Of a DNA stretch of 64,000 nucleotides, positions 13,053 through 50,190 are shown one piece after another (the first letter of the stretch is position 1; each line of letters opens with the position of its first letter). Under the pieces are notes generated by a model. It had not been told where the DNA came from, did no database searches, and was given only the letters and a program-made list of their open reading frames with translations. The DNA is from Pedobacter sp. BAL39 (GTDB lineage: Bacteria > Bacteroidota > Bacteroidia > Sphingobacteriales > Sphingobacteriaceae), in contig NZ_ABCM01000014.1 of assembly GCF_000170795.1 (NCBI RefSeq), forward strand, positions 62,001 to 126,000. The letters are read 5' to 3'. The position numbers and the translations under genes are program-made.

Positions 13053-13445
13053 ATGATCAATCCCAACGAACTAAGAATAGGCAATTACTATATCGATCTA
13101 AACGGTAATCCTACAATCTGGGAATTTGGCCGGCACGACTGGGACTACTTTACACCCGAAGAGCTCGAGGCCATTTCACCAGTCCCGATTACAGACGATT
13201 GGTTGGAAAAGTTTGGCTTTATTGAAATGGAAGATACAGTTCCTGAAGGTTATCCGACATTCAGACCACCAATGGGACGGTCAAGGATTTACTACACAGA
13301 TACCACTGAAATGTACGCTTGGGCAGTATATGAAGGCCTTAATGTCGATGAACAAATCGTCATTGCCTCATTAAAATACATACATCAGCTTCAGAATCTT
13401 TATTTCGCGTTATCAGGAGAAGAGCTGCTGCTTTCTGCGCAATAA
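13053..13445 (+). CDS. small conserved protein with NELRIGNYY start
   Basis: A 130-residue protein whose start at 13053 (MINPNELRIGNYY) matches the opening of a widespread family of small Bacteroidota and phage-associated proteins that end with a KYIHQLQNLYFALSGEEL segment, as here. The function of the family is not known to me. The longer frame from 12999 adds 18 unlikely residues. It is acidic, cytosolic and followed by a strong bidirectional hairpin. Confidence 0.75.
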   Translation: MINPNELRIGNYYIDLNGNPTIWEFGRHDWDYFTPEELEAISPVPITDDWLEKFGFIEMEDTVPEGYPTFRPPMGRSRIYYTDTTEMYAWAVYEGLNVDEQIVIASLKYIHQLQNLYFALSGEELLLSAQ

Positions 13446-13447
13446 TG

Positions 13448-13555
13448 ATGCGCTTCGCAGGTTTGCATCCAAATAAAAAAGCCTGTGTGCGATGAGGACA
13501 TGTAAAATCTTTCCTTCAAAAGATTTTGAGTCCGAAGCGCATACAGGCCTTTTTT
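13448..13555. terminator. bidirectional terminator with alternative pairing
   Basis: GCCTGTGTGCG (13481-13491) pairs with CGCATACAGGC (13539-13549), flanked by A6 and T6 runs, separating two converging genes. Within the loop AAAATCTTT (13503-13511) pairs with AAAGATTTT (13519-13527), and GGAC with GTCC. In addition ATGCGCTTCG (13448-13457) can pair with CGAAGCGCAT (13533-13542), which would compete with the terminator stem. Confidence 0.8.
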
Positions 13556-13600
13556 ATAAATAAAAACCTAACCAGGCTTTAAATGTCTGATAAATGCAGA

Positions 13601-14695
13601 TTAAACGTTAAACCTGAAGTGCATGATGTCACCATCTTCAACAACGTAAGTTTTACCTTCAACACCAAGTTTACCAGCATCCTTACAAGCAGCTTCAGAA
13701 CCTAAAGTAACGAAGTCAATATATTTGATCACCTCTGCACGGATGAAACCTTTCTCGAAGTCGGTATGGATCACACCAGCAGCCTGAGGAGCGGTGAAAC
13801 CTTTGGTAATCGTCCATGCGCGAACTTCCTGAACACCAGCAGTAAAGTAAGTGTACAAGTCCAGCAGGCGATAAGCAGCAACGATCAGTTTGTTGACACC
13901 GGATTCTGTCAGGCCAAGATCAGCAAGGAACTCCTGACGCTCTTCATAACTTTCCAGTTCAGCAATTTCAGATTCGATTTTAGCGGAGATCACCAGTACC
14001 TCAGCATTGTCGTCTTTTACCGCTTCTTTAACACGCTCTACATAAGCATTCCCATTGATGACAGAACCCTCATCTACGTTACACACATACATTACCGGTT
14101 TTTGCGTTAGTAAACCAAGGTCAAGGATATAGTCAAAATCTTCAGCAGTTAAGGCCGCAGAGCGGACAGACTTACCCGATTCCAGGTGAGTTTTCACCAC
14201 AGTCAGGATGTCGAAAGTCTTTTTGGCGTCTTTATCAGTTTTCGCCATTTTCTCTACTTTCTGGATGCGTTTCGTAACGGTGTCCAGATCTTTCAGCTGA
14301 AGCTCAGTATCGATAATTTCTTTATCACGGATAGGGTCAACAGAACCATCAACGTGGATGACATTACCATCATCAAAACACCTTAATACGTGGATGATGG
14401 CGTTTGTAGCACGGATGTTTCCAAGGAACTGATTACCGAGACCCTCACCTTTAGAAGCACCTTTCACCAGACCGGCAATATCTACGATTTCAATGGTATT
14501 AGGTACAATACGTTGAGGTTTGACCAGTTCTGATAATTTTGTCAAACGCTCATCCGGCACGGTGATGACACCGATGTTCGGTTCAATCGTGCAGAAAGGG
14601 AAGTTTGCAGCCTGAGCTTTAGCGTTCGATAAACAGTTAAATAGGGTAGATTTTCCAACATTTGGTAAACCAACTATACCACATTGTAATGCCAT
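13601..14695 (-). CDS. ychF: GTPase/ATPase YchF (Obg family, OLA1-like)
   Basis: A full-length, 364-residue YchF. The P-loop is GLPNVGKST (residues 8-16). [18 protein letters not shown] switch/G3 region follows, with a central coiled-coil insertion and the C-terminal TGS-like domain ([15 protein letters not shown] ... [12 protein letters not shown]) ending in HFRFNV. The family preferentially hydrolyses ATP, binds ribosomes and is linked to translation and redox-stress responses. The gene is monocistronic, with a perfect TAnnTTTG-type box 26 bases upstream and a bidirectional terminator downstream. Codon use and length are ordinary. Confidence 0.98.
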
Positions 14696-34471: not shown

Positions 34472-37400
34472 TTAAAAGATGGCATTTATTGAGAAGGTGA
34501 CACTCCTTGCGAAAGGATAGTCAATTCCACGTTCCTGTTTCACTGAAGACCAGCGTGCGATGTCGTTTGCCGTTAGAGAAAGCCGCAGGTTGGACATAGA
34601 GATTTTCTTTGCCAATCGCTGGTCTACGTCATACGAAAAGTTAACCGACTGCAGGTTGATCGAGTTGTCTGGCTGCACAAACCTGGAGCTGACGTCAGTC
34701 GTTCCCAGGTCGGCGATATTTTTATAAAACGTACGATCGCCTGACGTTTTCCATTTATCTTCAAATACACGACGGTCTACGTTGAATCGGGCATCTGCAT
34801 TTTCTACGCGGTCTACCAATGTCTGGTTATACATATCTCCACCAACACGTGTTTGGAATACGGCATTCAACATAAACCTTTTGTAAGTAAAAGTACCACC
34901 AAAAGAACCATCGAGTTTTGAATCTGCATTGCCGACTACTACAATATCTTTTATGTCATAGTCATAGGTAAGTGTACCATCTCTTTTGATGTAGAGTTCG
35001 CGGCCATTCTCCGGGTCTATGCCCAGGGACCGTACGGCATAAATGGCGTTGATGGACTGACCTTCATTAAACCTCAACAAAGGAATGCCTTTAAATCCAT
35101 CTTCAGATACAGGCTTGGTCTGCTCGTTATCCACACGGTCATTGTAACTTTTCAATGAATTGGAAATTCTGACGATCCGGTTTTTATTACTGACAAGGTT
35201 GGCCATCAGATTCACAGACCAGTCCTTGCTGCGCACAACATCCCACCTCATGTTCAGCTCCGCACCCTTGTTTTCCATATCGCCCAGGTTCTCCTTGTAA
35301 GAAAGGAATCCGGTAGAAGGAGGCAGTGTAATATCGGCGAGGATGTCCTTGGTGAACTTACGATAGACTTTCGGAGAGATGTACACCCTGTCGTGGAACA
35401 AGCCGAGCTCCAGGCCGATATCTGTATTTAACGTTTTTTGCCAGGACAGGTTTTCATTTCCATAATTTCTAACATTGGCACCAATTCCTGAAGAATACCA
35501 GTTGCCGCCCACGTAGTTATAAGTGGTGCGGGAGAGGTAGGGGTCAAAGAGTACGGATCCTGTAAGTCCTGTAGATGCTCTCAGGCGCAGTTGGCTGATC
35601 ACAGGGTGGCCTTTCAGGAACTCTTCATTGTGGAGGTTCCAGCCAAGCCCCAGCGACCAGAATGGCGCCAATTTATTGTCAACACCAAATTTAGACGATC
35701 CGTCGATACGAACCGAGGCATCCAGCAGGTATTTATTTTTGAAGGAATAGTTGAGTCCTACAAAAGAACCGAAAAGCCTTGACTTTTCTATCCTGCTGTT
35801 AGGCTTACCATCCTCTGCATATCCTTTAGCAAAGCCAATGCTGCTGAAACGGTCATTCGCAAAGCCGATAGCGGTAAACTCTTTGGCGTCGGAAAGTTCC
35901 GTACGCATATTTACTCCAGCCAGAACGTTAAAGTAGTGGTCAGCAATTTGTTTCAGCCAGGTCAGACGGATGTTTCCGTCCCAATAGGTTTCTTTACGTT
36001 CCCGGCTGGTGTAAGAGCCTTTTTCGTCTATTTTCGCGGTCTCATAGAAATAAAATTCATTAGACTGCGGCGACTTGAACAGGTCGTCGTTGCCCATGCG
36101 GCTGGTTAAGCTCATCTGTCCTTTCAGACGCAGGTCTTTGGCGATCTCCATTTCTGCAGAAAGGTTATCGATGATCTCCGTGTAGGAAGATTTGTCAAAG
36201 CTGCTAAGCGTGGCATCATAAAGCGGGTTCAGAATGATCTCCGGGTTATTTGTGTCTTGTTTGTCCCAGATGTCAATTTCCCGGATCACCTTGCCGCTCG
36301 CATCTGCAAGAGGGTAGTAGGGATTGGTCTTTACATAATTTGAAAAGGCGCCGTATGGAGACTCCTTACCATTTACCTGCGTAATAGACAAATCGTTTCG
36401 GAATTGTAGTTTATTTAGGTTATAAGAGAAGTTCATACCTCCGGAATATTGGTCCCTGCCGGAACCTTTCATTACTCCCGGCCTTGTCTGATAGCGCAGG
36501 TCGACACCGTAACGAAATGCTTGAGATCCACCTTCAAGATACAGGGAATGCTTCTGTCCGGCTGTCGTTCTGACTGGTTGCGAAAGCCAGTAGGTATTTA
36601 CGCCGCCAACAACATTAGCCAGCCTGTGATAGTAGGCTGCATCGAGGATATCCTGAGCCGCTTTTGAGTCCCCGGTGGTGTAAAGACCTGCAAGCACTTC
36701 GTATTCCAATTTATCTTTCGCATTAAGTACATTGTAGTCGGAAAGGTCGGCGCCGGTTACGTTGACTTCATAATTGTAGCTTACACGTAGTTTGCCTTCC
36801 TGAGGTGCCTTGGTAACGATCACGAGAACACCATTCGCCGCACGTGCACCGTAAATAGCTGTCGCTGCTGCATCTTTCAGCAAGGTCACTGATTCCACCC
36901 TGTTGATGTCCAAATCGAAGATTTTCTGTGCATTTACCTCATATCCGTCAAGGATAAAAGCTGGCATGTTGACGTTACCCTGGATGTTGTCCCTTCTCAA
37001 TACGTCAGTACTTCCTGTAGGCAGTGCTGAAGAACCACGTACATTGATGGAAGGAATGGCATTTGGATTCGAGCCCAGGAGGTTATTGTCGATCAGCTTA
37101 AACGATGGGTCGAAGGTCTGGATACTGGCCAGCAGGTTCTGTGGGTTGACTCTTTTTAGGTCTGCTCCCTTAATCGCTATGGCCGTACCCGTAAAGCTGT
37201 CCTTTTTGATGGTCTGGTATCCGGTGACGACCACGTCGTTCATGGTGTTCACCTCCGATTCAAGGACCACGGTCATATTTGCATCAGTGATCTTGACCTC
37301 TTTTAACTTGTAACCTATGTAGCTGAAGATCAGTACATCACCAGGGTTAGCCTCGATTTTGAAATTTCCATCACCATTGGTCTGACTTCTTACGCTCCTG

Positions 37401-37873
37401 TTGCTTTTTAAAGAGATGTTTACACCCGGAATCGGCTGGTTGGTTTCTTTATCGACGACCCTTCCGCTGATAGAGACGATGGCTGAGGTTTTTCCGGTAG
37501 TCTGTTCGGTCGCTTTCGGGCTCAGGACGATGGTCTTATTCACGATGGTGAAATTTAGGTTGTCGTTCTGCAGGCAGATTTTCAGGGCTTCATTCAGCGG
37601 CACATTTTTAAGCTCTACATTCAGGCGCTGATCAGAGGCCTTTACTTTGCCGGTATAGAAAAATAAATAGCCTGTCTGTTGTTTGATGTCTTTGAATATC
37701 GTCTCCAGCGTTGCATTTTTCCTGGAGATGGTCACACTCTGGGAGAAACTGGCAGCCGATAAATGCAAAGTGCCGATCAGTAATAAAATAGCGGTCAATT
37801 TCATCACTATTAATAGTTTGTACTTTACCCTCTGTATCTGAGATACAGGGTTGTAAAGAAAAGTTAATTTCAT
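34472..37873 (-). CDS. SusC/RagA TonB-dependent transporter with STN domain
   Basis: An 1,133-residue outer-membrane transporter. N-terminal signal sequence (SAASFSQS), then an STN signalling domain (about 50-110), a carboxypeptidase-like regulatory domain (IVSISGRVVDKETNQPIPG ...), the TonB plug (KKDSFTGTAIAIKGADLKRVNPQN ...), and a 22-strand barrel ending SINAIF. The STN domain means that ligand binding is signalled through FecR to the ECF sigma factor encoded upstream. The first ATG is kept because a long N-terminal stretch is common in this family. The ligand is unknown; the presence of TlpA/DsbD partners suggests a thiol- or metal-containing or proteinaceous substrate, but this is a guess. 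Confidence 0.95.
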   Translation of the reverse strand: MKLTFLYNPVSQIQRVKYKLLIVMKLTAILLLIGTLHLSAASFSQSVTISRKNATLETIFKDIKQQTGYLFFYTGKVKASDQRLNVELKNVPLNEALKICLQNDNLNFTIVNKTIVLSPKATEQTTGKTSAIVSISGRVVDKETNQPIPGVNISLKSNRSVRSQTNGDGNFKIEANPGDVLIFSYIGYKLKEVKITDANMTVVLESEVNTMNDVVVTGYQTIKKDSFTGTAIAIKGADLKRVNPQNLLASIQTFDPSFKLIDNNLLGSNPNAIPSINVRGSSALPTGSTDVLRRDNIQGNVNMPAFILDGYEVNAQKIFDLDINRVESVTLLKDAAATAIYGARAANGVLVIVTKAPQEGKLRVSYNYEVNVTGADLSDYNVLNAKDKLEYEVLAGLYTTGDSKAAQDILDAAYYHRLANVVGGVNTYWLSQPVRTTAGQKHSLYLEGGSQAFRYGVDLRYQTRPGVMKGSGRDQYSGGMNFSYNLNKLQFRNDLSITQVNGKESPYGAFSNYVKTNPYYPLADASGKVIREIDIWDKQDTNNPEIILNPLYDATLSSFDKSSYTEIIDNLSAEMEIAKDLRLKGQMSLTSRMGNDDLFKSPQSNEFYFYETAKIDEKGSYTSRERKETYWDGNIRLTWLKQIADHYFNVLAGVNMRTELSDAKEFTAIGFANDRFSSIGFAKGYAEDGKPNSRIEKSRLFGSFVGLNYSFKNKYLLDASVRIDGSSKFGVDNKLAPFWSLGLGWNLHNEEFLKGHPVISQLRLRASTGLTGSVLFDPYLSRTTYNYVGGNWYSSGIGANVRNYGNENLSWQKTLNTDIGLELGLFHDRVYISPKVYRKFTKDILADITLPPSTGFLSYKENLGDMENKGAELNMRWDVVRSKDWSVNLMANLVSNKNRIVRISNSLKSYNDRVDNEQTKPVSEDGFKGIPLLRFNEGQSINAIYAVRSLGIDPENGRELYIKRDGTLTYDYDIKDIVVVGNADSKLDGSFGGTFTYKRFMLNAVFQTRVGGDMYNQTLVDRVENADARFNVDRRVFEDKWKTSGDRTFYKNIADLGTTDVSSRFVQPDNSINLQSVNFSYDVDQRLAKKISMSNLRLSLTANDIARWSSVKQERGIDYPFARSVTFSINAIF

Positions 37874-38044
37874 ACTTTTGGAATAGGATAAGGTGAATAA
37901 TTGCAGCCTGGTTTTCGACGGCTGGCTGCCGACCTTTTTTCAAGCCGGGAGAGGTGAGATGCTTCCGGCTTTTTTAGTCTTCAATCTGTGGTGGTTCTAG
38001 ACGAGTAAATTTTCTTTCATGCGAAAAGCTTTTAGCAGTAAACA

Positions 38045-38125
38045 GTTTAGTTAGTTGGTATAATGGTTTAGGGTTGATGTTAATGGTATCGGTTTGTGGT
38101 GGTGATGGTATATGCTGTTTAGTTG
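38045..38125 (-). repeat. degenerate repeats between fecR and susC
   Basis: Four units beginning GTTTAG or GTTTGT with a later ATGGTAT or similar (at 38045, about 38066, 38092 and 38117) lie in the 252-base spacer between the FecR stop and the SusC gene. Imperfect. Confidence 0.4.
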
Positions 38126-39280
38126 TTAGTTGCAGGTAACATTGATGGTCTTGCCCTTAACTTCAAAATGTACGTTGTTAATTTCCAGTATTTTAAACAC
38201 ATCGGATAGTTTGTCATTCCTGGAAATCTCCCCGTAGAACTTCTCTTCACAGGGTTTTCCTGAATAGGTCACATCGACGTTGTACCAGCGTTCAATCTGA
38301 CGCATTACGGTCTGCAGGTCATCCGCTTCAAAGGCAAATACACCATTTTTCCAGGCAATCTCCTTGTTGAAGTCAACGTTCTGGACGTTGATTTTTCCAG
38401 GCTGACTATAACTTACCCGTGCCTGCTGTCCGGGCGCGAGCACACTCTGGCTTCCGTTGACGCTGACCTTTACTGCCCCTTCGATCAGTGTGGTACGGAT
38501 GTCCTGTTCATTTTCATAGGCATTCACATTGAAATGTGTGCCCAGCACTTCTACCGTTTGTACGCCAGATTTGATAATGAAAGGCATGTTTTTATTCTTA
38601 GCCACTTCAAAATAGGCTTCACCCTTTAAATTGACTGTTCTTGAATTGCCCTTAAAAGATGAAGGATAACTCAGGGAGGTTGCCGCATTTAGCCAAACGT
38701 GCGTACCATCAGGAAGTACCACCTGGTATTGACCCGCCCTGGGTGTGCTGATGGTATGCAATGCTGTTGAGCTGTTGTCATTTTCCGTTTGATCGGACTC
38801 AATGACGGTATAGATCAGCTCACCGTTAGCAGTTTTACTGATGCTGATGCCTGGGAATTCGCCGATGGCCCCATTTGCAGCATCATCAAGTACGATCTTC
38901 TTACCATCCGCAAGTGTCAGTACCGCTTTATTGCTGCCAGGGTAAATCGTGGAGGCCGAATCTGCAACAGGCTGAGGACTTTGTAAATAGAAATAAGCAC
39001 CTATTGAAAGGGAGAGCACCACCATTGCTGCGGCTGCATAGCGGAACCAGCTGCTCCTAAATAGAGGCGAAGGCTTTGGGTTGATCTCTTCCTCCACCTG
39101 CAGGCGGATGCGTGCTTTAAGGTCGCTGAAATATTGTTCATTGTCGGCCGTAATCAAATCCTCATTCAGATCGAATACATTATAGTAGGTCTCCAGGAAA
39201 CTGATTTCCTCTGCAGTGGCCTGGTCAAGACGATATTTTTCTAAAATAGCTATGAAGTGCTGTTTGTGTATTTCTTTCAT
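38126..39280 (-). CDS. FecR-family anti-sigma/sigma-regulator protein (first set)
   Basis: A 384-residue inner-membrane regulator. Residues 1-75 are the cytoplasmic sigma-binding region (SFLETYYNVFDLNEDL), the span lies about 78-98 (YAAAAMVVLSLSIGAYFYL), followed by the FecR domain (about 110-230) and the C-terminal DUF4974 domain (VFAFEADDLQTVMRQIERWYNV). It transmits the signal from the STN domain of SusC to the ECF factor upstream. A 21-base tandem repeat precedes its start codon. Confidence 0.95.
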   Translation of the reverse strand: MKEIHKQHFIAILEKYRLDQATAEEISFLETYYNVFDLNEDLITADNEQYFSDLKARIRLQVEEEINPKPSPLFRSSWFRYAAAAMVVLSLSIGAYFYLQSPQPVADSASTIYPGSNKAVLTLADGKKIVLDDAANGAIGEFPGISISKTANGELIYTVIESDQTENDNSSTALHTISTPRAGQYQVVLPDGTHVWLNAATSLSYPSSFKGNSRTVNLKGEAYFEVAKNKNMPFIIKSGVQTVEVLGTHFNVNAYENEQDIRTTLIEGAVKVSVNGSQSVLAPGQQARVSYSQPGKINVQNVDFNKEIAWKNGVFAFEADDLQTVMRQIERWYNVDVTYSGKPCEEKFYGEISRNDKLSDVFKILEINNVHFEVKGKTINVTCN

Positions 39281-39294
39281 CTGTATGGCTGATG

Positions 39295-39340
39295 ATCGGT
39301 TTCCCTATCTTTATAATCGGTTTTCCCTACCCTTTATATA
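39295..39340 (-). repeat. two 21-25-base tandem units before fecR
   Basis: ATCGGTTTCCCTATCTTTAT (39295-39314) is followed directly by ATCGGTTTTCCCTACCC plus TTTATATA (39316-39340), in the spacer between the sigma gene and fecR. Confidence 0.6.
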
Positions 39341-39528
39341 TACATGAGTCGGAAATTTCGAAATAGCCCACGCGGATGTAAAATATTTTTCAATTTTTCT
39401 ATCGAAAGTGAGTACGTGTGGTTTTTAGGTCTGTTGTTTTGTTTCAAAACCTGATTTTCGCGGAAGGTTTGTCGTCTTTTGTAGAATAATGGTAGATATT
39501 CGGGAGGATGTAGAGATCTTATGGTGTT

Positions 39529-40119
39529 CTACCGTCTCATCGCTTCGTAAATCATGAGGAAGTTGAAGACCATCATCGAAGTTTTCAGTGTAGCAAGTGC
39601 TTTGCCCATCTGGTTTCTTACCGTTTTTGGGGAGATCTGGAGTTTTTCCGCAATCTCCTGGCTGCTCATTTCTTCTTCAAAACGCATCCTGAAGATGGCC
39701 TGTTGTTGTGTGGGTAGCGAGTTGACCAGCACATTAAAGGCCTGCAGAAATTCTTTGTGCAGCATGCCCGCATCGGCACCTCCATGGCGGGCTTCCAGCT
39801 CATGGGCAGCATCCTGGGGAACGCCCATGAACTTCCCTGCTTTTTCCATGTGTTTGAACACACTGTTCCTGGAGGCGACAAAAAGGTAGGCGGGGAGGTT
39901 GTCTATGGGTGATTTCGTACCACGGACCCAAAGCTGAACGAACACATCCTGGGCAATGTCTGCCGCCTGGTCTGCATCATTGAGTCTTTTGTAGGCGGCA
40001 TTGTATACCTGTTTCCAGTATTTGTCATACAGCACGTCAAAAGCAGCTTTGCTGCCCTCGCTCAACTGCCGAAGCAGCATCGCGTCTTCTTCGCTATGGA
40101 CTATTTTATCCTGATACAT
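39529..40119 (-). CDS. ECF sigma factor (first set, FecI-like)
   Basis: A 196-residue ECF factor. The ATG at 40119 is preferred to the GTG at 40125. Region 2 (FDVLYDKYWKQVYNAAYKRL ... DIAQDVFVQLWV) and region 4 (LPTQQQAIFRMRFEEEMSSQEIAEKLQISPKTV) are clear. It precedes fecR and the SusCD operon and is expected to activate that operon when SusC binds its ligand. A perfect TAnnTTTG-type box lies 18 bases upstream. Confidence 0.95.
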   Translation of the reverse strand: MYQDKIVHSEEDAMLLRQLSEGSKAAFDVLYDKYWKQVYNAAYKRLNDADQAADIAQDVFVQLWVRGTKSPIDNLPAYLFVASRNSVFKHMEKAGKFMGVPQDAAHELEARHGGADAGMLHKEFLQAFNVLVNSLPTQQQAIFRMRFEEEMSSQEIAEKLQISPKTVRNQMGKALATLKTSMMVFNFLMIYEAMRR

Positions 40120-40136
40120 GCTCACCCTCTGTAAGT

Positions 40137-40251: not shown

Positions 40252-41319
40252 ATGAACAGAGACAAAAACTATTCCGACTATACATTATACGACTTCCTGA
40301 TGGATGCACATTTTAAAAAGTGGGCAACACAGGAAGGTGATGACCGCGATGATGCCTACTGGCTGGGGGTGATGGACGACTATCCAGCGAAAAGACAGCT
40401 GATCCTGAGTGCCAGAAAAACTGCCCGGTCTTTAAAAAATAGTAGGTCGGGAAAAAATACAAGCTCAGTTAAGACCGCAAACACGGCTCCGGCATTGAAC
40501 AAAGCGGCCATCTGGCAACAGATTCAGGAACATAAACAAGAACCTTCAGCCCCTGCAATGGTAGTCAGAAAAAGCAGGCTGACCGTTTTTTACCGTTACG
40601 CAGCAGTGGTTGCAGTGATCGGGATCGCGGTGATGGTATGGTTTTCGACTAGTGTGCCTTACATTACCGTAACTACCGGCAACGCCGAAACAAAAACGCT
40701 CGTACTGCCTGACCATTCGGTGGTGCAGCTGGCCTCAAATTCCACATTGCGTTATCCGGCCAAAATACGGGACCATGAAGCCAGGGAGATTTTCCTTAGC
40801 GGAACGGCACGTTTCCAGGTGGTACACCTCAACAGAGATCCTTTAAAGGTCAGCGAAGGAGAACGTTTTATCGTTCACCTTGCCCATAAGGTGAATGTGG
40901 AAGTGCTGGGGACCACCTTTAGCGTCGATGACCGGCGTGGAAAGGCACAGGTCAACCTCGAATCGGGATCGGTGAAAATTTACACACAGCAGCAACAGCT
41001 GCTCCTGAAGCCTGGGGAGACGGCGGAAACGCAGGCAAATCAAGTCAAGCGGATAAGTGTTCAGCAGCATCGGGCATTGAAGCGAAGCTGGCAGCAGCCG
41101 GAACTGCTGATGGACCGGATCACCGTCAGCGCTGTGATTGCAGCCCTGGAAGATAACTATGGCCTCAAAATCAGGGTGGAAGATCCACAGGTGCTGGAGA
41201 AACAGCTGGATGGCAGCCTTCCGCTGAATGATGAACACCGTGCCTTGCGGATATTAAGCAGCATCACCGGAACGCACATCGATAGAAAGCTGGATTCCAT
41301 TACCTTAAGCAAGCCATAA
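40252..41319 (+). CDS. FecR-family regulator (second set)
   Basis: A 355-residue FecR/DUF4974 protein: cytoplasmic part to about residue 110, membrane span about 114-132 (YAAVVAVIGIAVMVWF), FecR domain (about 140-260, including EVLGTTFSVDDRRGKAQVNLESGSVKIY), and DUF4974 (from about 275). It heads the plus-strand operon with the TonB receptor directly downstream (1 base gap). No ECF gene is encoded on its own strand upstream; the divergent ECF gene belongs to the SusCD set. The best partner candidate in the window is the ECF gene at 49618. Confidence 0.93.
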   Translation: MNRDKNYSDYTLYDFLMDAHFKKWATQEGDDRDDAYWLGVMDDYPAKRQLILSARKTARSLKNSRSGKNTSSVKTANTAPALNKAAIWQQIQEHKQEPSAPAMVVRKSRLTVFYRYAAVVAVIGIAVMVWFSTSVPYITVTTGNAETKTLVLPDHSVVQLASNSTLRYPAKIRDHEAREIFLSGTARFQVVHLNRDPLKVSEGERFIVHLAHKVNVEVLGTTFSVDDRRGKAQVNLESGSVKIYTQQQQLLLKPGETAETQANQVKRISVQQHRALKRSWQQPELLMDRITVSAVIAALEDNYGLKIRVEDPQVLEKQLDGSLPLNDEHRALRILSSITGTHIDRKLDSITLSKP

Positions 41320-41320
41320 T

Positions 41321-44300
41321 ATGAAATACAGGTTACTGTTATGTTGTCTTGGATGTATGTTGTGTATTACCCATGCCCATGCACAGTCGGTGAGCTCCCT
41401 GAAACAGGCTTTGCAGGAGTTCAGCAAAGCACGGAAAGTCAGGTTTGCCTACGAACATCAGCTGATTGCAGGGAAGACCGTTAGCTACGACGCCAGGCAG
41501 CTCAATACAGGCACAACGGAAGTTGCTTTGAAGCTGCTTTTACAACATACAGGCCTTGGCTTTGAGCAGATCGGCAAAGATTATTTTACCATTCTCAAAG
41601 TGCCCGTGGCCTCAGAAAAGTCCCTGGAAACAAAGCCGGCGTTAACCATTATTGAAGAAAACATTGCCGGTACTTCAGCCGGTGCCACTCATATTTCTGT
41701 ATCGGGCAAGGTTTCCTCCGCGAGTAGCGGGAGGCCAATAGATCATGCAACAGTTGGAATCGCGCAGCTGGGCATCAGCAGCATGACAGATGAAAAGGGA
41801 GAATTTAACTTTGCAGACCTGCTGCCGGGAAGGGCGACGGTAAAAGTTCAGTTCCTGACGATGGCCATGCAGGAGCGCGAACTGCAGCTGGAGGCGGGGA
41901 AAAGTTATCGCCTCAACTTCCTGCTCGAAGACAATGTACTGAACCTTAAGGAGGTTGTTGTCGTCGCCTCGGAGAGCAAGGCCGGTAGTGCTACCGCGTC
42001 ACTCATCTCCCAGAAAGCCATAGAACACCTGCAGGCCACCAGTCTGAATGATGTCCTGCAGCTGCTGCCTGGGGCACTGGCCAGCAACCCCGACTTCTCT
42101 AATGTGAACAGGGCCGCCATCAGGCAGATCAACGCCAACAACATGGGGAGCCTCGGTACGGCGGTGCTCATCAATGGCATCCCGGTGTCCAACAATGCCA
42201 ACCTGCAGGTCCTGAACCCCGCCACGGGAGGTGCAAACGCTTCTTTTTCGACCAGCACGGGCAGCGGTACGGATTTACGCCAGATCTCGGCCGACAATAT
42301 TGAGTCTGTGGAGGTTATCCGTGGGGTGCCATCAGTAGAATACGGCGACCTGACCAACGGTGCTATACTTGTAAAAACGAAAGCAGGAGTAAGCCCATTG
42401 CAGCTGAAAGCAAGGATCAACCCGGTGCTCACGCAATTCTGGCTAGGCAAGGGCATTGACCTTGGGGCGGAGGGGGGAAGCCTCAACGTAGATTTTGATT
42501 ATACCAAAGCATATACCGACCAGCGTTATTCTTTTGACGCCTATAACCGGGTAACAGGCAGCCTTCTGTATTCAAAGCGTTTTTTTAAAGAACAGCCCCT
42601 GATGACGACCACAGGCTTTTCTTATGCCATGAACCTCGATGAGCTGAAGCAGGACCCCGACGACCTCAAAACACACACAGTGCGTTCAGCGCAGGATTAT
42701 GCCTACCGCTTCAATACTTCCGGACGATGGAACCTCAACAGGCGTTTTGCCCGGATGCTGAATTATGATGTCAGCGTCAACTATGCAATACAAAAAGGTT
42801 TCCAGCAGGAGCTGCTCAGCAATTACATCTATCCGATATCTACGGCGACCAAAGATACCACCATGGCTGGTCAGTATGTGCCCAGCGAATACCTCAGTAA
42901 AGTCTGGATTGATGGTAAACCCATGAACCTTTTTGCCAAGCTCAGCAACAGTTTTTACCTGAAGACCGGCGCTTTTGGACATCGCTTTCTGATGGGTGGA
43001 GAGTGGCGCATGGATGCAAACTTTGGCGCAGGGAAAACCTTTGATACCAGTCGCCCGCCCCGCATGGGCAATGGCGCTGCCAACAGGCTGTTCTCCTATA
43101 AAGATATTCCTGCCCTCAACCAGCTTTCGTTATATGCTGAGGACAACATTTCTGCGACGATCCTCAATCGCGAACTGCGTATCCAGGCGGGGCTCCGCTT
43201 CGATCAGATGCAGCCCTTTGGCATTGCCGGTGGCAACATGGGAAATGTGCTGGCACCAAGGGTCAACTTTGCCTATGAGCTTGCCAAAAAGGTAAACCTC
43301 CGTGCTGGTTATGGCACCACCGCAAAGGCACCTACATTATTGTACCTCTATCCGCAGGATGCCTACTTTGATCTGCTCAACCTGAATTACTATGCTGACA
43401 ATCCGGCCGAGCGCCTGGTGATCGTCACCACAAGGGTGTTTAACACCAGGAATGAGCAGCTGAAGATTGCCACCAATAAAAAGATGGAGTTGGGTTTTGA
43501 TGTGACCTTCATGGAGGACAAGAGACTGGCGGTTACCGCCTACAGCGAGCGATTGAAAAATGGCTATTCCTTCAATACTACTTTCGAGAGTCTGCGCATG
43601 GTGCCCCTGGCGAGCTATGAGGTCGCTTCGGCACCAGTCGGGCAGCCGCCGGTGCTCAATCCTGTGCCCGTGAGTGTGAGCAATTTTGCAGTCGACTATA
43701 ACATGCCCACGAATGAGCTGGAAACTAGAAATAAAGGGTTGGAGTTTGACCTGGATCTGGGCCGATTTGAAGCCATCCGCACTTCCTTCGTGCTGAATGG
43801 CGCATGGATGAACACCGACACCCGGAGCACAGGTTATTACATCATCAAAAGACAGCTCAGCAACAGTGAGCCGGAGCGCATCCCTGTATACGCTCCAGGA
43901 AGAGGAAATGAATACAGTCGCACGAGCACTACTTTACGCATGATCCACCACATCCCACAGTTGCGGTTCATTGTGACCCTTGCGGCGCAGACCATCTGGT
44001 CGGATAAAAACAAATACATCGGTTATGAGTCGCTGCCGGTAGCTTACATCAGTAACACTGACGGGCAGCTGACCTGGCTCTCTGAGGCGGAGCGCAACAA
44101 CCCCGCTATTGTCAACAATGCGGAGCTGAACCTTCATGTGCAGCCTGAATACTATAAAACCGAAAGCTGGAAACCTTTATGGCTGTTCAACCTGCGGCTC
44201 ACGAAAGAGATGGGCAAGGCGATCAGCTTTTCCTTTTTTGCCAATAATGTGCTGATGGACCGCCCGCTGGAGGAAAGTTCACGCTGGACGGGCCAGTATA

Positions 44301-44353
44301 GCCGTAGAAACCCAAGACTATTTTTTGGAACCGAACTAAGCATCAAATTTTAA
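41321..44353 (+). CDS. STN-containing TonB-dependent receptor
   Basis: A 1,010-residue outer-membrane receptor. Signal peptide to about residue 22 (HAHAQS), STN domain (about 25-92: LKQALQEFSKARKVRFAYEH), a carboxypeptidase-like regulatory domain (about 126-208), TonB plug (about 220-345) and a barrel ending LSIKF. No SusD partner follows, so this is a classical signal-transducing receptor of the FecA kind, not SusC. It precedes a DUF4876-type lipoprotein. Substrate unknown; siderophores, haem or peptides are possible. Confidence 0.93.
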   Translation: MKYRLLLCCLGCMLCITHAHAQSVSSLKQALQEFSKARKVRFAYEHQLIAGKTVSYDARQLNTGTTEVALKLLLQHTGLGFEQIGKDYFTILKVPVASEKSLETKPALTIIEENIAGTSAGATHISVSGKVSSASSGRPIDHATVGIAQLGISSMTDEKGEFNFADLLPGRATVKVQFLTMAMQERELQLEAGKSYRLNFLLEDNVLNLKEVVVVASESKAGSATASLISQKAIEHLQATSLNDVLQLLPGALASNPDFSNVNRAAIRQINANNMGSLGTAVLINGIPVSNNANLQVLNPATGGANASFSTSTGSGTDLRQISADNIESVEVIRGVPSVEYGDLTNGAILVKTKAGVSPLQLKARINPVLTQFWLGKGIDLGAEGGSLNVDFDYTKAYTDQRYSFDAYNRVTGSLLYSKRFFKEQPLMTTTGFSYAMNLDELKQDPDDLKTHTVRSAQDYAYRFNTSGRWNLNRRFARMLNYDVSVNYAIQKGFQQELLSNYIYPISTATKDTTMAGQYVPSEYLSKVWIDGKPMNLFAKLSNSFYLKTGAFGHRFLMGGEWRMDANFGAGKTFDTSRPPRMGNGAANRLFSYKDIPALNQLSLYAEDNISATILNRELRIQAGLRFDQMQPFGIAGGNMGNVLAPRVNFAYELAKKVNLRAGYGTTAKAPTLLYLYPQDAYFDLLNLNYYADNPAERLVIVTTRVFNTRNEQLKIATNKKMELGFDVTFMEDKRLAVTAYSERLKNGYSFNTTFESLRMVPLASYEVASAPVGQPPVLNPVPVSVSNFAVDYNMPTNELETRNKGLEFDLDLGRFEAIRTSFVLNGAWMNTDTRSTGYYIIKRQLSNSEPERIPVYAPGRGNEYSRTSTTLRMIHHIPQLRFIVTLAAQTIWSDKNKYIGYESLPVAYISNTDGQLTWLSEAERNNPAIVNNAELNLHVQPEYYKTESWKPLWLFNLRLTKEMGKAISFSFFANNVLMDRPLEESSRWTGQYSRRNPRLFFGTELSIKF

Positions 44354-44371
44354 TCTATATACAATCCAATC

Positions 44372-45580
44372 ATGAGAAAATCAATCTATACTTCTTTTAT
44401 CTTACTGCTCCTGGCTGTTGCAGGCCTGCAAAGCTGCAAAAAGTCGGACAATGAAACACCGACAGTCAGCTATACGGTAAATGTAAGTTTCCCTAACAAT
44501 TACGCCACTACAAAGGCTGCCAATGCGGAGGTGACGCTGACCAACTCCACTACCAATGTGAAGGTTACGGCAACAAGTAATGCCGATGGTGTTGCCGCAT
44601 TTACCGGCCTGCTCCCAGGTAACTATCAGGTGACCGCCAGTCGCACGCTGACAGCAGCCGAAGCACTGGTACAAACTGGTTTTGAGACCGAGGTTTTCCT
44701 GAATGCTTCCGCTACCAATCAGCTGATTGCTGCTGATGCAAGCCTCGACCTGAAATTACAGGGCAGCAAGGTGGGTGGTCTGGTATTCAAGCAGATCTAT
44801 TATACCGGGTCGAAAACTCCTGCCAATGGAAACTACCAGGCAGACCAGTTTTATGAGATTTACAACAACTCTCCGGAAGTGATCTATGCGGACAGCCTTT
44901 ACCTTGGCGAAAGCGGTGGTACGCCTGGGATTTCTGCAAGCGCAACTCCCTTTGCATTTTCTAAAACAGCGGGCAATGTGTACTTGCAGAATGTGTGGAT
45001 GATCCCCGGAACAGGAAAGTCGCACCCCATTGAACCAGGTGCCTCTATTGTGATCTCCAGCAATGGCATACACCATAAAACTGACGCTGCGGGCAACGTG
45101 AACTCTGTAGACCTGGGTGCGGGTATCTCCGACTTTGAAGGTTATGTAGCCAGCACGGGCAGGGATGTGGACAATCAGGCGGTGCCGAACATGGACCTTC
45201 CTTACTTTGCCGCTTCCACCTTTACCTGGCTGACCTCCGTTTATGGACCGGGAATGGTGATCTTCAAAACCAAGGATTTCGAGAGCCTCAACAAGCTGCA
45301 GGAGCCGGGAAGCAGCAATGCCCGCTTGTATGTGGAAGTTCCGGGGTCGGATGTGATTGATGCCATGGAAGCACTGGCAAATGCAAATGCGGTGAACTTC
45401 AAGAGGATTCCTGCGGCGCTGGATGCCGGTTTTGCTTTTTGCACGGGTACTTATAACAGACAGGCCATCATCCGCAAGATCACGACCACGGTGAATGGCA
45501 GAAGGGTCCTTCAGGATACGAATAACTCCAGTGCCGACTTTGTAACGACGACCAACATCTTGCCTAAAGGATGGCAATAA
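44372..45580 (+). CDS. DUF4876-like lipoprotein
   Basis: A 402-residue lipoprotein with LQSCKK. An N-terminal Cna-B/carboxypeptidase-like beta-sandwich (about 30-120, with GLLPGNYQVTASRT) is followed by a domain of the DUF4876 kind (GLVFKQIYYTGSKT ... QFYEIYNNSPEVIYADSLYLGES). Such proteins are found with TonB receptors and DUF6850 barrels in Bacteroidota. Probable surface-exposed ligand-binding component. Its stop codon overlaps the start of the next gene (TAATG). Confidence 0.75.
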   Translation: MRKSIYTSFILLLLAVAGLQSCKKSDNETPTVSYTVNVSFPNNYATTKAANAEVTLTNSTTNVKVTATSNADGVAAFTGLLPGNYQVTASRTLTAAEALVQTGFETEVFLNASATNQLIAADASLDLKLQGSKVGGLVFKQIYYTGSKTPANGNYQADQFYEIYNNSPEVIYADSLYLGESGGTPGISASATPFAFSKTAGNVYLQNVWMIPGTGKSHPIEPGASIVISSNGIHHKTDAAGNVNSVDLGAGISDFEGYVASTGRDVDNQAVPNMDLPYFAASTFTWLTSVYGPGMVIFKTKDFESLNKLQEPGSSNARLYVEVPGSDVIDAMEALANANAVNFKRIPAALDAGFAFCTGTYNRQAIIRKITTTVNGRRVLQDTNNSSADFVTTTNILPKGWQ

Positions 45581-47157
45581 TGAAAAAGATATGGACGGTG
45601 GGGATCCTGCTGTTTGCGTTTACCTGTGCACATGCGCAGGTAACGCAGACAGATTCGCTGCGTCTGCTGCCGCAGCAGTTTGAGCTGCTGCCGCTGCGCT
45701 ACAACTGGCTGGAGGGTACCAATGCTGCAGGTATGCAGCGGGACAGCCTGTATGCGCTTGGTAAAACCCAGCTTTCCTTTGCTTCGGAAAAGGGAGACCT
45801 CAGGCGCATTCAGCAGCCGGAAAGCCGCGATCAGTTCCGCTTCCAGTCGGAGCGCTACCAGCCGCTGGGTAAAAGCGTGTTTTATGGTAGCTTTTCCTAT
45901 ACCCAGCGCTGGGATAATGAGGTGCATTTTTCTGACGTGCTTGATCCCTATCGCGGCACGCCATACCTGCTTGCGGATTCTGTGGGCGGCGACTGGAAGT
46001 TGCAGCTGTATGCATTGAAGCTCAAGGCTGCAGCACCGAAACTGTGGAATGACCGACTGGTCTTTGGAATCGGGGCAAATCTGGAGGTGTCTACGGGTGC
46101 AAGACAAAATGACCCCAGGCCATTGAACACCGCCAACAAGCTGAGCATCCTGCCTGCGGTAACCTTGGCGTTGAATGACCACAGTACTTTCGGACTGAAC
46201 GGCTATTACGGCCGTTACCAGGAAGACATCTCCCTGGAGATCAGGAACACCTCGGTGAACCATTTTCTATATAAACTGCTGGGACTAGGACAGTATGAGC
46301 TTCCGGGGATCTTTTCTGTAGGGAGCTCCCGCAATTACGGGGGCAATACCTATGGTGCTGACCTGCAGTACGAATGGCGCATGAATGGCTGGAGCTGGCT
46401 GAGCACGGCTGGCTTTCGCAGCTTAAGGGAAGCGGTATCGGATGGCAACAGTGTGCCCCGCAAAGCGGGCACCTGGGAACAAAAAGACTACCATGCTCAG
46501 ACTATGCTCGGCCGTGAAGGAGAAGCCTTTTTTCAGAAGTTAAGGCTGCAGCTGGAGCGACTGGAAGATACAGGCATCGAGTTCCATGAGTTTTACAATA
46601 CTGGCACACAGATGTGGCAGACAATACTTGAAGCGCCGTTTTATACGGCAGAGACCACCAGCGCAACATTGAATTATACCATCCTCAGAAAAGAGGGGAA
46701 TGATAGCTATAAGTGGTCCGCCCAGGGGGAGCTGAAATACATTTCCGTAGATCAGCGCTACAGTGTGCCCCGTTCTTCGCAAAGGGTAACACAGCTCCAT
46801 GCGGCCATTAAAGGAGGCCGGAACTGGATGATGTCCCATGGCAGAAGCTTGCAGCTGAACCTTAAGCTGAACTATGAAATGGCACTCGACCAGGCTTTGT
46901 CGTACGTCCCGATTACCGGCGACAGGACCTTGATCGCCAGGGAGGTACTGTTGCCCGACTATGATTATGGCGCGGCAGACCGCATAGGGGGCAGCTGCGA
47001 CCTGCAATATAATTTCTGCATACCGTCGGTTCCGCGTACCAGCTTCTATGCAAAAGCTGTGGCCCAGGTGCTGGGCAACCTTAGTTCCGCGGCACGCTAT
47101 CCTTCAGCAAGAGGAAACAGGACCATGTTTAACCTGAGCCTTGGCGCTTATTATTAA
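45580..47157 (+). CDS. DUF6850-like outer-membrane beta-barrel
   Basis: A 525-residue exported protein. The ATG at 45580 overlaps the preceding stop codon by one base and begins a signal peptide ending CAHAQ. The rest is made of alternating hydrophobic strands with Tyr/Trp girdles (YGSFSYTQRWDNEVHFSDV, GLNGYYGRYQEDISL) and ends GAYY. It has no plug. This matches the outer-membrane barrel partner seen next to DUF4876 proteins. The last codons are repeated as a 19-base duplication just downstream. Confidence 0.75.
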   Translation: MKKIWTVGILLFAFTCAHAQVTQTDSLRLLPQQFELLPLRYNWLEGTNAAGMQRDSLYALGKTQLSFASEKGDLRRIQQPESRDQFRFQSERYQPLGKSVFYGSFSYTQRWDNEVHFSDVLDPYRGTPYLLADSVGGDWKLQLYALKLKAAAPKLWNDRLVFGIGANLEVSTGARQNDPRPLNTANKLSILPAVTLALNDHSTFGLNGYYGRYQEDISLEIRNTSVNHFLYKLLGLGQYELPGIFSVGSSRNYGGNTYGADLQYEWRMNGWSWLSTAGFRSLREAVSDGNSVPRKAGTWEQKDYHAQTMLGREGEAFFQKLRLQLERLEDTGIEFHEFYNTGTQMWQTILEAPFYTAETTSATLNYTILRKEGNDSYKWSAQGELKYISVDQRYSVPRSSQRVTQLHAAIKGGRNWMMSHGRSLQLNLKLNYEMALDQALSYVPITGDRTLIAREVLLPDYDYGAADRIGGSCDLQYNFCIPSVPRTSFYAKAVAQVLGNLSSAARYPSARGNRTMFNLSLGAYY

Positions 47158-47197: not shown

Positions 47198-49444
47198 ATG
47201 AATATCAAGAAAAAATCAGCCTTAGTTTTGTCGGCCGCCACGGTCATGCTCGGACTCTATACGGGAGCCGCAGCACAGCAAATCGAAAAGCCACTGAAGA
47301 AAAATACGGCTACGACCTTCGCCATTGTGGTCGACCAGGAGACCTACAACAAGGCGAAACAGGAAATCAATGCGTACAAGTCGGCGCTGGAGAAACAAGG
47401 CCTCGGCACCTATATCGTTAGTCACCAATGGACAAAACCTGAAGAAATCAAGGTCGTCCTTCAGAAGTTGTATTCCGATAAAAACAGGCTGGAAGGTGCC
47501 GTGCTCATCGGCGACATCCCGATTCCGATGGTGATGGATGCCCAGCGGTTAACTTCCGCTTACAAGTTTGATCAGGCCAGGTTTGGCTTCAGGGCGGCAG
47601 TACCTTCTGACCGTTTCTATGACGATTTCAACCTGAAGCTGAACTTCATCAAACAGGATTCCCTGAAGGCAGGTAATTTCTACTATAGCCTGGCTCCTGA
47701 ATCCGCACCGGAGATTCACCCTGATATTTATACGGCGAGGATCAAGGCGCCAGCAATTAAAGGCAAGGATAAATACGAGCTGATCCGTACCTACCTCAGC
47801 AAAGTGGTGGCAGAAAAAGAACAGCAGAACCGCCTGAACCACCTGATGGTATATAGTGGTATGGGCTACGCTTCGGAGTCGCAGACTGCCTGGGCGAGCG
47901 AGCAGGTGGCCCTCAGGGAACAGCTGCCACAGCTGTTCAGGGCTGGGTCGTCGGCGAAGTTCGTCAACTCCAGAATGCAGGGTGATCTTAAACAACGCCT
48001 GCTGACGGAAGTGCAGCGTGAGGATCTTGACCTGGCAATTTTTCATCAACATGGCGAGTCGGATGTGCAGGTGATCAGTGGTTATCCGAATGTTTCTTTC
48101 CCGCAGCCTTCCATCGAAAATGTGCGACGTTACCTGCGCAACAAGATCCAGGCAGCCAACCGCAAGAAACAGGATGTAGCGGAAACAAAAAAGAGATTTC
48201 AGGCTACGCTGGGCGTACCTATGGCCTGGATGGATGATGCCCTGACCGACTCTGTGGTGCTTGCCGATTCTCTGTTTGAGGCCAATGGAAACATTATGAT
48301 GGAAGATGTGGATAAAATCAGGTCCAATGTGCGCATGCTGATCCTTGATAACTGTTACAACGGATCTTTTCATAAAGACGATTATATGAGTGGTCACTAT
48401 GTCTTTGGCAGTGGAAAAACCATCGTCGCCATGGCCAACTCGATCAATGTACTTCAGGATGTGTGGACTACCGAGCTGATTGGTCTGCTGCAGCATGGTG
48501 TGCGGGCAGGAAACTGGTTCAAGGAACAAGCCTACCTGGAAACACACCTGATTGGTGATCCTACCTTTGCCTTTACTGCTGAAGGCAACACGGACTACAA
48601 CGAGCTGATCGTGAACAAGGATGGCAGTGATCCGGTATGGAAGCAGTTGCTGAAAACCGGTGATGCAGACCTGCAGGCCCTGGCGCTCACAAAGATCTTC
48701 TATGCACAGGGCGCTGCCTCCAGCTCCTTATTGAAGGATGTTTACTACAGTGCTGCTGATGCAAGCACGAGGATGCAGGCATGGAAACTGTTGAGCACAC
48801 TGAACAATGCAGATTTTAAGGCGGTATTGAAAGATGCGCTCACAGATCCATATGAATACCTGAGGAGACGCTCGGCAAATATGGCCGGTGATTTTGGTAC
48901 CGATGACCTGGTGCCCGCATTGGTGGCTTCTGGAATCGAAGACTGGGCCTCGAAAAGGGTAGCCTACAACTCCGGAAACTCGATGTCTTTCATGAATGCT
49001 GACCTGGTGATTGCTCAGTTGCAGGAGTACCTTAAAAAGCCTGAATTTGCAGGGAATACCGACATTCAGCGCCTGATTAAAAGGCAGGAAGGCACGAGGG
49101 AAAAAGTGCTGAAGGAAGGTAAAGTGATGGAGGATAAAAAGGCTGTTGCCAAGGAACGCGCTTTTGATGTCAATATGCTACGTACCTATACCTATCACGA
49201 ACTGGTGCCTCAGGCAATTGCAATTGCTGCAGATGCTGCTGAAGATCACAAACTGAGGCTCGCTGCTGTGGAGGCTCTGGGCTGGTTCCCTTATTCTTAT
49301 CAGAAAGATAAAATCGTGGCCCTTTGCGATCAGCTGATTGCTGACAAAAACAGTACTGCCCAGTTGAGGGAAGAGGCCATGCGCACCAAAACTTATCTCC
49401 TTCATTTTTCTGCCGAAAAATATCAGACTGTGGCTAAAAAGTAA
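47198..49444 (+). CDS. secreted clan-CD-protease-like domain fused to HEAT-like repeats
   Basis: A 748-residue exported protein; the ATG at 47198 starts the signal peptide (GAAAQQ). Residues about 40-450 form an alpha/beta region reminiscent of gingipain/caspase-fold (clan CD) enzymes: GAVLIGDIPIP (100-110), DLDLAIFHQHGE with His285-Gly286, and VRMLILDNCYNGS with Cys386, i.e. hydrophobic strand-HG and hydrophobic strand-xxC in the right order. Residues about 500-740 are helical pairs resembling HEAT repeats (LRRRSANMAGDFGTDDLVPAL, LRLAAVEALGWFPYS). It closes the operon and is followed by a terminator. A peptidase role is inferred, not shown. Confidence 0.75.
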   Translation: MNIKKKSALVLSAATVMLGLYTGAAAQQIEKPLKKNTATTFAIVVDQETYNKAKQEINAYKSALEKQGLGTYIVSHQWTKPEEIKVVLQKLYSDKNRLEGAVLIGDIPIPMVMDAQRLTSAYKFDQARFGFRAAVPSDRFYDDFNLKLNFIKQDSLKAGNFYYSLAPESAPEIHPDIYTARIKAPAIKGKDKYELIRTYLSKVVAEKEQQNRLNHLMVYSGMGYASESQTAWASEQVALREQLPQLFRAGSSAKFVNSRMQGDLKQRLLTEVQREDLDLAIFHQHGESDVQVISGYPNVSFPQPSIENVRRYLRNKIQAANRKKQDVAETKKRFQATLGVPMAWMDDALTDSVVLADSLFEANGNIMMEDVDKIRSNVRMLILDNCYNGSFHKDDYMSGHYVFGSGKTIVAMANSINVLQDVWTTELIGLLQHGVRAGNWFKEQAYLETHLIGDPTFAFTAEGNTDYNELIVNKDGSDPVWKQLLKTGDADLQALALTKIFYAQGAASSSLLKDVYYSAADASTRMQAWKLLSTLNNADFKAVLKDALTDPYEYLRRRSANMAGDFGTDDLVPALVASGIEDWASKRVAYNSGNSMSFMNADLVIAQLQEYLKKPEFAGNTDIQRLIKRQEGTREKVLKEGKVMEDKKAVAKERAFDVNMLRTYTYHELVPQAIAIAADAAEDHKLRLAAVEALGWFPYSYQKDKIVALCDQLIADKNSTAQLREEAMRTKTYLLHFSAEKYQTVAKK

Positions 49445-49449
49445 TGTTT

Positions 49450-49508
49450 AAAGCAAAGCGCTATCGGTGCAATTAATTAGCGCAACTTCAGCGCTTTGCT
49501 TTAAATTT
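49450..49508 (+). terminator. strong terminator after the receptor operon
   Basis: AAAGCAAAGCGCT (49450-49462) pairs perfectly with AGCGCTTTGCTTT (49490-49502), a 13-pair stem, followed by AAATTTTT. It separates the operon from the downstream sigma gene. Confidence 0.85.
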
Positions 49509-49575
49509 TTATTGTCACAGAAATGCAACTTCAATTTCTGACCGCCCTTATAGTTAGAATAAAGCCCTATAATTG

Positions 49576-49617: not shown

Positions 49618-50190
49618 ATGGAAAAAACTTATTGGAATTCGTTCGTTAATGGAGATCAGAAAGCCTTTGAAATGCTGTACAATATACATTTCGACGCGCT
49701 GGTCGGTTACGCCGGAAAATTCAGTAGTGATGTGCCTTTCATTGAAGAAGCGGTGCAGGACCTGTTTGTAAAACTCTGGCAAAACCGTGCCAATCTGAAG
49801 AGACCCGAGTCTCTCAAATATTACTTGTTTAAAGCCTTAAGGAATACCATTTACAATAAGCTGAAATCTTCAGCCCTGGAGGTTTATGTGGGCGACGAAG
49901 CGGATATGATTGCATTTGACCTGTCTGCAGACCTGGCAGATGCGGAGGGGCCGCATGAAGACTGGAATGTGCTTAGCCATAAATTTATGGGGAACCTTAC
50001 CGATCGTCAGAAGGAAGCGGTGTATCTTTTCTATGTGGAGGAGATGAGTTATAAGGAGATCGCTGATTTGCTGCAGATCAAGGTTGGTGGTACCTATAAG
50101 CTGATTTACCGGGCGATGGCCGGCATCAGGGAGCAGGCCCGCGACTTCGAATCGCAGGCCGGCAATGTCCACCTGGTACCTAAAGGTTAA
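49618..50190 (+). CDS. ECF sigma factor (second set)
   Basis: A 190-residue ECF sigma factor: region 2 (FEMLYNIHFDALVGYAGKF ... EEAVQDLFVKLWQNRANL) and region 4 (LTDRQKEAVYLFYVEEMSYKEIADLLQIK). It starts 173 bases after the receptor operon, behind a terminator, so it has its own promoter with the palindrome described above. It ends in an 11-base overlap with the converging DUF4142 gene. It is the likely partner of the FecR at 40252, given that the other ECF gene sits in the SusCD set. Confidence 0.92.
   Translation: MEKTYWNSFVNGDQKAFEMLYNIHFDALVGYAGKFSSDVPFIEEAVQDLFVKLWQNRANLKRPESLKYYLFKALRNTIYNKLKSSALEVYVGDEADMIAFDLSADLADAEGPHEDWNVLSHKFMGNLTDRQKEAVYLFYVEEMSYKEIADLLQIKVGGTYKLIYRAMAGIREQARDFESQAGNVHLVPKG

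Follow-up and report, generated by a model that had tools for sequence, protein, structure and literature searches.

The last gene of a TonB-dependent receptor operon in Pedobacter sp. BAL39 encodes a predicted exported protein in which a putative cysteine peptidase domain, divergent from but related by profile to family C25 of clan CD, is fused to a HEAT-like solenoid. In our preferred reading, to which we give a probability of about 55%, this is an active periplasmic C25-type protease with HEAT repeats that cuts a protein or peptide ligand imported by a module of TonB receptor, DUF4876 lipoprotein and DUF6850 protein. All coordinates refer to the 64,000-nucleotide stretch that was analysed (the window), and features of the window lie on its plus strand unless noted.

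Domain organisation and predicted location of the protein

The open reading frame at 47198..49444 is genuine, with an ATG at 47198, a stop codon ending at 49444 and a product of 748 amino acids. The original prediction that this product carries a signal peptide holds: the N-terminus, MNIKKKSALVLSAATVMLGLYTGAAA|QQ, is by sequence a Sec-type signal peptide (residues 1–26, AAA|QQ; 47198..47275) without a lipobox. When homologues were scanned, a lipobox pattern was found in 6/81, mainly in over-extended N-termini. Residues 36–466 form a two-subdomain catalytic domain, which comprises an N-terminal alpha/beta subdomain (residues 36–210; 47303..47827), placed by hhalign against C25 and by the AlphaFold model, and a C-terminal catalytic subdomain (residues 213–466; 47834..48595) that matches the C25 profile. 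AlphaFold modelled both the whole protein and the isolated catalytic domain with a pLDDT of 94.

From about residue 467 onward the model is all-helical, and residues 467–747 (48596..49438) are assigned to a HEAT-like alpha solenoid. This region matched HEAT_2 (PF13646; E=1.9e-9) with 38.1 bits against a Pfam cut-off of 27.7, and PDB profile and fold searches matched it to alphaRep/HEAT structures. A C-terminal HEAT-like solenoid had also been predicted, and both the HEAT_2 score and the all-helical model bear it out. HEAT_2 was the only Pfam match of the 748-residue protein, and searches of NCBIfam and of PDB sequences gave nothing usable; the protease family is recognised in family libraries merely as a HEAT-repeat protein.

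The T9SS sorting domain (Por_Secre_tail) was absent from 13 full-length relatives, and the protein itself terminates in the HEAT solenoid. A PF01364 search of the window's genome, in a run in which the control genomes were likewise without a match, found nothing, PorU included; we consider this absence meaningful because the same search was positive in 85/118 genomes of the phylum. Given the signal peptide, the lack of a T9SS tail and the absence of any PF01364 or PorU match from the genome, the mature protein is likely to be retained in the periplasm. The genome has one copy of the protease gene.

Evidence for a divergent C25 peptidase

The suspicion of a clan CD peptidase arose from two hydrophobic strands that end in His285-Gly286 and Cys386. 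In the AlphaFold model, beta strands 279–283 and 380–384 do precede these residues, and they are the third and fourth of six strands in the catalytic subdomain (215–220, 252–257, 279–283, 380–384, 410–414 and 449–453), with helices between them. Clan CD is defined by a His after strand 3 and a Cys after strand 4 (PMC4357240), and the order of the modelled strands along the sequence fits the caspase/haemoglobinase fold. The candidate catalytic His285 (48050..48052) lies in the context LDLAIFHQH285G286ESDVQ, and the candidate catalytic Cys386 (48353..48355), the sole Cys within the catalytic domain, lies in VRMLILDNC386YNGSF, with a DxCxNGSF motif. Both residues occur in every one of the 81 main-copy homologues and are kept in 25/33 tandem paralogues. 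Gly286, Gly389, Asp278, Gln291, Gln420, Asp421, Glu448, His450 and Gly453-Asp454-Pro455 are also invariant in the 81 main-copy sequences, in which 38/430 domain columns do not vary. The G453-D454-P455 motif (48554..48562) corresponds to the C-terminal GDP signature of C25, and in the N-terminal subdomain a conserved SDRxYDD (137–143) and Y178..R181-I182 align with the C25 motifs tD..Y and GRl.

We used hhalign to compare the family with 20 C25 domains from genomes of the phylum. The intact domain aligned over its full length (prob 95.3, E=2e-8), and each half aligned by itself (N-terminal part, prob 91, E=1e-6; catalytic part, E=3e-5). In the intact-profile alignment the His is left unpaired, as the alignment is shifted by a helical insert of 67 residues between the His and Cys strands (residues 302–368; 48101..48301) that is missing from the C25 domains compared. 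Because of this insert the His–Cys spacing is 95–102 in the relatives, compared to 30–55 in the 20 C25 domains. Deleting the insert columns, a deliberate alteration of the profile, gave prob 96.9, E=1.4e-10 and a score of 81, and placed His285 on the C25 GHG, Cys386 on the C25 Cys and GDP on GDP; 20 column-shuffled control profiles scored 10.6–21.3. The window protein did not reach the gathering score of PF01364, with no match in that search. PF01364 was, however, touched by 10/82 relatives at E<1 (best E=7e-5), one of which spans profile positions 90–371 of 374 with 19.8 bits against a cut-off of 23. Since the homology extends over the whole domain with His and Cys paired, the shuffled profiles fail and relatives touch PF01364, the assignment of the catalytic domain to a divergent branch of C25, and so to clan CD, is supported at the level of sequence profiles, and the original prediction of a clan CD domain is upheld.

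The expectation of a caspase-like fold was borne out in part. The strand order of the model is caspase-like, but a Foldseek search of the PDB with the catalytic domain had no gingipain, caspase or other clan CD entry in its top 50, which were mainly Rossmann-like with TM scores of 0.13–0.20. The clan CD fold assignment rests on profile homology and strand order, not on Foldseek. With the full-length model, Foldseek matched HEAT/alphaRep proteins in the PDB as well as a CHAT (caspase-like) filament at E=1.7e-3, and no protease emerged when PDB sequences were searched with either the protein or the family profiles. A match to the NCBIfam family caspase_w_EACC1 was set aside (E=0.008–0.017, 15 bits against a cut-off of 140, Cys region only).

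Residues that may form a substrate pocket are also conserved. In RgpB, the P1 Arg is read by Asp163 on helix 1 together with Gln282 and Trp284 after strand 5 (PMC4357240). By comparison with this gingipain pocket, Q420-D421-x-W423 after strand 5 (48455..48466) are candidate S1-pocket residues (Gln420 and Asp421 in 81/81, Trp423 in 79/81), and position 235 on helix 1 is acidic (Glu or Asp) in 78/81. From these RgpB-like positions it is reasonable to guess, as a starting point, that basic residues are preferred at P1.

Loss of the dyad in tandem paralogues

The loci contain 33 further copies of the protease, of which 25 keep both His and Cys and eight have lost both. The eight dyad-less copies are found in four Sphingobacterium loci, as tandem pairs of ~635-residue paralogues (L055 17343-21169, L059 12628-16544, L063 13429-17231 and L088 12859-16682). 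They also lack Gln420, and their insert is reduced to 2–4 residues from 65–72. In contrast, D138, R139, D278 and GDP are present in all 33 extra copies, so that the dyad-less ones appear to be pseudo-peptidases with the motifs of the fold kept. Since the eight copies are two tandem paralogue types from one genus, in a region of uncertain alignment, the dyad was probably lost independently one or two times. The joint loss of insert and dyad in these copies ties the insert to catalysis, and suggests that dyad, Gln420 and insert act as a single catalytic unit, which argues strongly that the intact copies are enzymes. Elsewhere, DUF6850 is followed by a tandem array of three diverged, active-looking protease copies (Bacteroides, Alistipes, Prevotella and Odoribacter; L069, L070, L079, L099, L103, L104 and L106).

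A conserved operon with a TonB-dependent receptor

The original prediction placed the gene last in an operon with a TonB receptor and a lipoprotein. This arrangement is confirmed and conserved. The window operon includes a FecR-family anti-sigma factor (40252..41319; PF04773, E=6e-14), a TonB-dependent receptor with a CarbopepD_reg domain (41321..44353; PF00593, PF07715, PF13715) and a weak STN-like N-terminus (PF07660, E=0.028 only), a DUF4876 lipoprotein with the lipobox LQSC (44372..45580; PF16215, E=1.4e-36), a DUF6850 protein that is presumably an outer-membrane barrel (45571..47157; PF21012, E=9e-117), and the protease. Directly after the protease stop codon, the operon is closed by an intrinsic terminator with perfect 16-bp arms followed by a T run (49447..49515; RNA fold -29.3 kcal/mol, z -5.7). 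An ECF sigma factor gene, identified by profile match and by gene order in relatives, follows at 49618..50190 and probably pairs with the FecR/receptor set; it is 3' of the protease in Pedobacter relatives and 5' of fecR in Chitinophaga. A separate sigma/FecR-like/TonB-receptor set lies upstream on the minus strand (34472-40125), divergent from the operon.

When 84,980 species were scanned, each represented by one genome, relatives were found encoded in 540 stretches. The best 80 of the 540 come from Bacteroidota (Pedobacter, Sphingobacterium, Chitinophaga, Bacteroides, Alistipes, Prevotella and others), Ignavibacteria, Marinimicrobia and KSB1. The HEAT fusion had been described as unusual; it is not peculiar to this genome and instead is fixed across the family of ~540 loci. 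The family is well separated from other HEAT proteins: among 395 genomes of the phylum, seven had matches at E<1e-290, and the next match was at 1e-9, with such matches mainly covering the HEAT part only.

In 80 loci, genes near the protease included a TonB receptor in 72, DUF4876 in 69 and DUF6850 in 73, and the loci missing a partner family include ones on short contigs. Linkage of the four genes spans Bacteroidota, Ignavibacteria and Marinimicrobia. DUF6850 was detected above cut-off in 7/7 protease-bearing genomes compared to 37/395 genomes overall (Fisher p=4e-8), and protease-linked DUF6850 proteins cluster in a quick tree with long branches (3 label changes, compared to 19.5 in shuffles). 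Conversely, 30 of the 37 sampled phylum genomes with DUF6850 have no protease. In 8/20 protease-free DUF6850 loci, a gene 3' of DUF6850 encodes a di-haem cytochrome c peroxidase of the MauG type (PF03150, E ~1e-50; L123 5902-7044, L125 8940-10097 and L129 8800-9948, as well as L130, L132, L135, L136 and L138), and in Sphingobacterium rhinopitheci (L051) the protease and MauG flavours are adjacent, with the MauG-type gene at 13171-14334. Because protease-free loci carry the peroxidase and one locus has both, the periplasmic enzyme of the TonB/DUF4876/DUF6850 module appears to be exchangeable.

Other genes adjoin the set in particular lineages. A conserved, secreted-looking protein of ~206 residues without a Pfam match is found beside it in 24 loci from Sphingobacteria and Chitinophagaceae (for example L039 9312-9962, L041 12224-12859 and L057 9075-9758). 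Ignavibacteria loci have Sortilin/BNR-type propeller proteins flanking the receptor set (L052 18-2168 and 7717-9939; also L056, L066, L073 and other Ignavibacteria loci); these are candidate surface ligand binders, and both of the two checked have a T9SS tail. In Faecalibacter (L100 5632-7329) the TonB receptor gene is in fragments, yet two intact protease genes follow it.

Expression data from species other than that of the window connect similar operons to iron. In a published study, iron depletion increased expression of B. thetaiotaomicron BT1933-39 by 3.5-7.4-fold and of P. gingivalis PG1019-22 by 20.8-214.5-fold (PMC10434189). The same study describes BT1933-39 as a transposase, hypothetical proteins, a HEAT protein, DUF4876 and a TonB receptor (PMC10434189). 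As listed there, their number and order match our Bacteroides locus L103, which contains a receptor, DUF4876, DUF6850 and three proteases. From this gene order and annotation, BT1934-36 would be orthologous to the window protease.

Proposed function and alternative explanations

We propose that the TonB receptor, the DUF4876 surface lipoprotein and DUF6850 would capture a protein or peptide ligand, probably one carrying iron or another metal, and carry it across the outer membrane. The protease, as a clan CD cysteine peptidase exported to the periplasm, would then cleave the ligand and release peptides or the cofactor, while the HEAT solenoid probably holds the substrate. The receptor would report the presence of ligand to FecR and the ECF sigma factor. 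We infer each of the steps on which this scheme depends, namely that the enzyme is catalytically active and resides in the periplasm, that the imported ligand is proteinaceous and that metal is released. The original prediction had offered processing either of a proteinaceous ligand or of the receptor complex itself. Processing of an imported ligand fits better, since most DUF6850-bearing genomes have no protease, and the occurrence of modules without it indicates that the receptor does not depend on the protease.

The same distribution bears on the possibility that the enzyme is a maturation protease, trimming DUF4876, DUF6850 or the receptor for assembly or signalling much as the C25 sortase PorU trims T9SS cargo. 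FecR/sigma systems often rely on proteolysis, and the strict co-occurrence of the protease with three envelope proteins is what such a role would predict. However, in 30/37 sampled genomes DUF6850 proteins work without the protease, and the tandem arrays of Bacteroides, Alistipes and Prevotella, with their two or three divergent copies, are more in keeping with varied substrates, so we regard maturation as unlikely. Catalysis itself would be dispensable if intact copies were periplasmic binding scaffolds of C25 fold and HEAT repeats, in which His and Cys have a structural or metal role. The persistence of the dyad-less Sphingobacterium copies does suggest a non-catalytic role for some family members, but in these copies loss of the dyad went along with loss of Gln420 and the 67-residue insert, while D138, R139, D278 and GDP stay in 33/33, which makes this explanation improbable for the intact ones.

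A receptor-linked periplasmic protease could also confer immunity by destroying a bacteriocin or host peptide that enters via the receptor, and HEAT solenoids bind peptides. Matches to PADLOC defence families were noise only, though, and iron regulation of similar operons points to nutrition instead; we consider protection very improbable. Cleavage of an imported ligand by an active periplasmic protease is the reading that we carry forward. More tentatively, and at less than even odds, protease-associated protein import may have evolved independently a second time, with these loci of Bacteroidota and neighbouring phyla as the second class. In that case the module would import an intact protein or peptide that carries a metal, and the cargo would be freed in the periplasm by an exchangeable enzyme, either the gingipain-like HEAT protease or the MauG-type di-haem peroxidase.

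The analysis places a putative cysteine protease family, with several hundred members and present in gut and soil Bacteroidota, in operons with TonB receptors that are ligand orphans. If imported ligands are cleaved, protein piracy through TonB receptors would no longer be confined to Proteobacteria and to M16 proteases, and there would be a way to find the ligands of a conserved class of receptors linked to iron.

Comparison with known systems

Like C25 peptidases (RgpA/RgpB/Kgp and PorU), the window protein has a two-subdomain catalytic domain with GHG-like and GDP motifs, His after strand 3, Cys after strand 4 and Q..W after strand 5, and its extra N-terminal strands are reminiscent of the ten-stranded RgpB sheet. 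It differs in the 67-residue insert and the wider His–Cys spacing (95–102 compared to 30–55), in having C-terminal HEAT repeats in place of an Ig/adhesin/T9SS tail, with no T9SS signal, and in falling under the Pfam cut-off and being tied to a TonB operon. BT1933-39 and PG1019-22 share with the window a TonB receptor and DUF4876, in their case in an iron-responsive operon, and B. thetaiotaomicron shares the HEAT protein; in the accessible part of the report these proteins are labelled HEAT or hypothetical and no protease is named (PMC10434189). RagAB and SusCD importers similarly combine a receptor with a surface lipoprotein, but the window lipoprotein matches DUF4876 and not SusD. Membership of the SusCD/RagAB group was rejected for the receptor (TIGR04056, 59.6 bits against a cut-off of 368).

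A receptor plus a periplasmic protease has precedents in Fus and PqqL, where the enzyme is an M16 metalloprotease (PMC6793856). We found no description of a C25-type partner of TonB import in the open-access literature. In Fus/FusC and YddB/PqqL, as here, a TonB-dependent receptor and an exported protease are encoded in one conserved cluster with iron-linked regulation, which in our case comes from species with a similar operon. Unlike those systems, which have been published from Proteobacteria, the window family is found in Bacteroidota and their neighbours, its receptor set includes DUF4876 and DUF6850, and its enzyme would be a C25-like cysteine peptidase with HEAT repeats instead of an M16 metalloprotease. 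By this analogy, we favour the interpretation that the logic of the operon is convergent with that of the Fus/PqqL protease-associated import systems.
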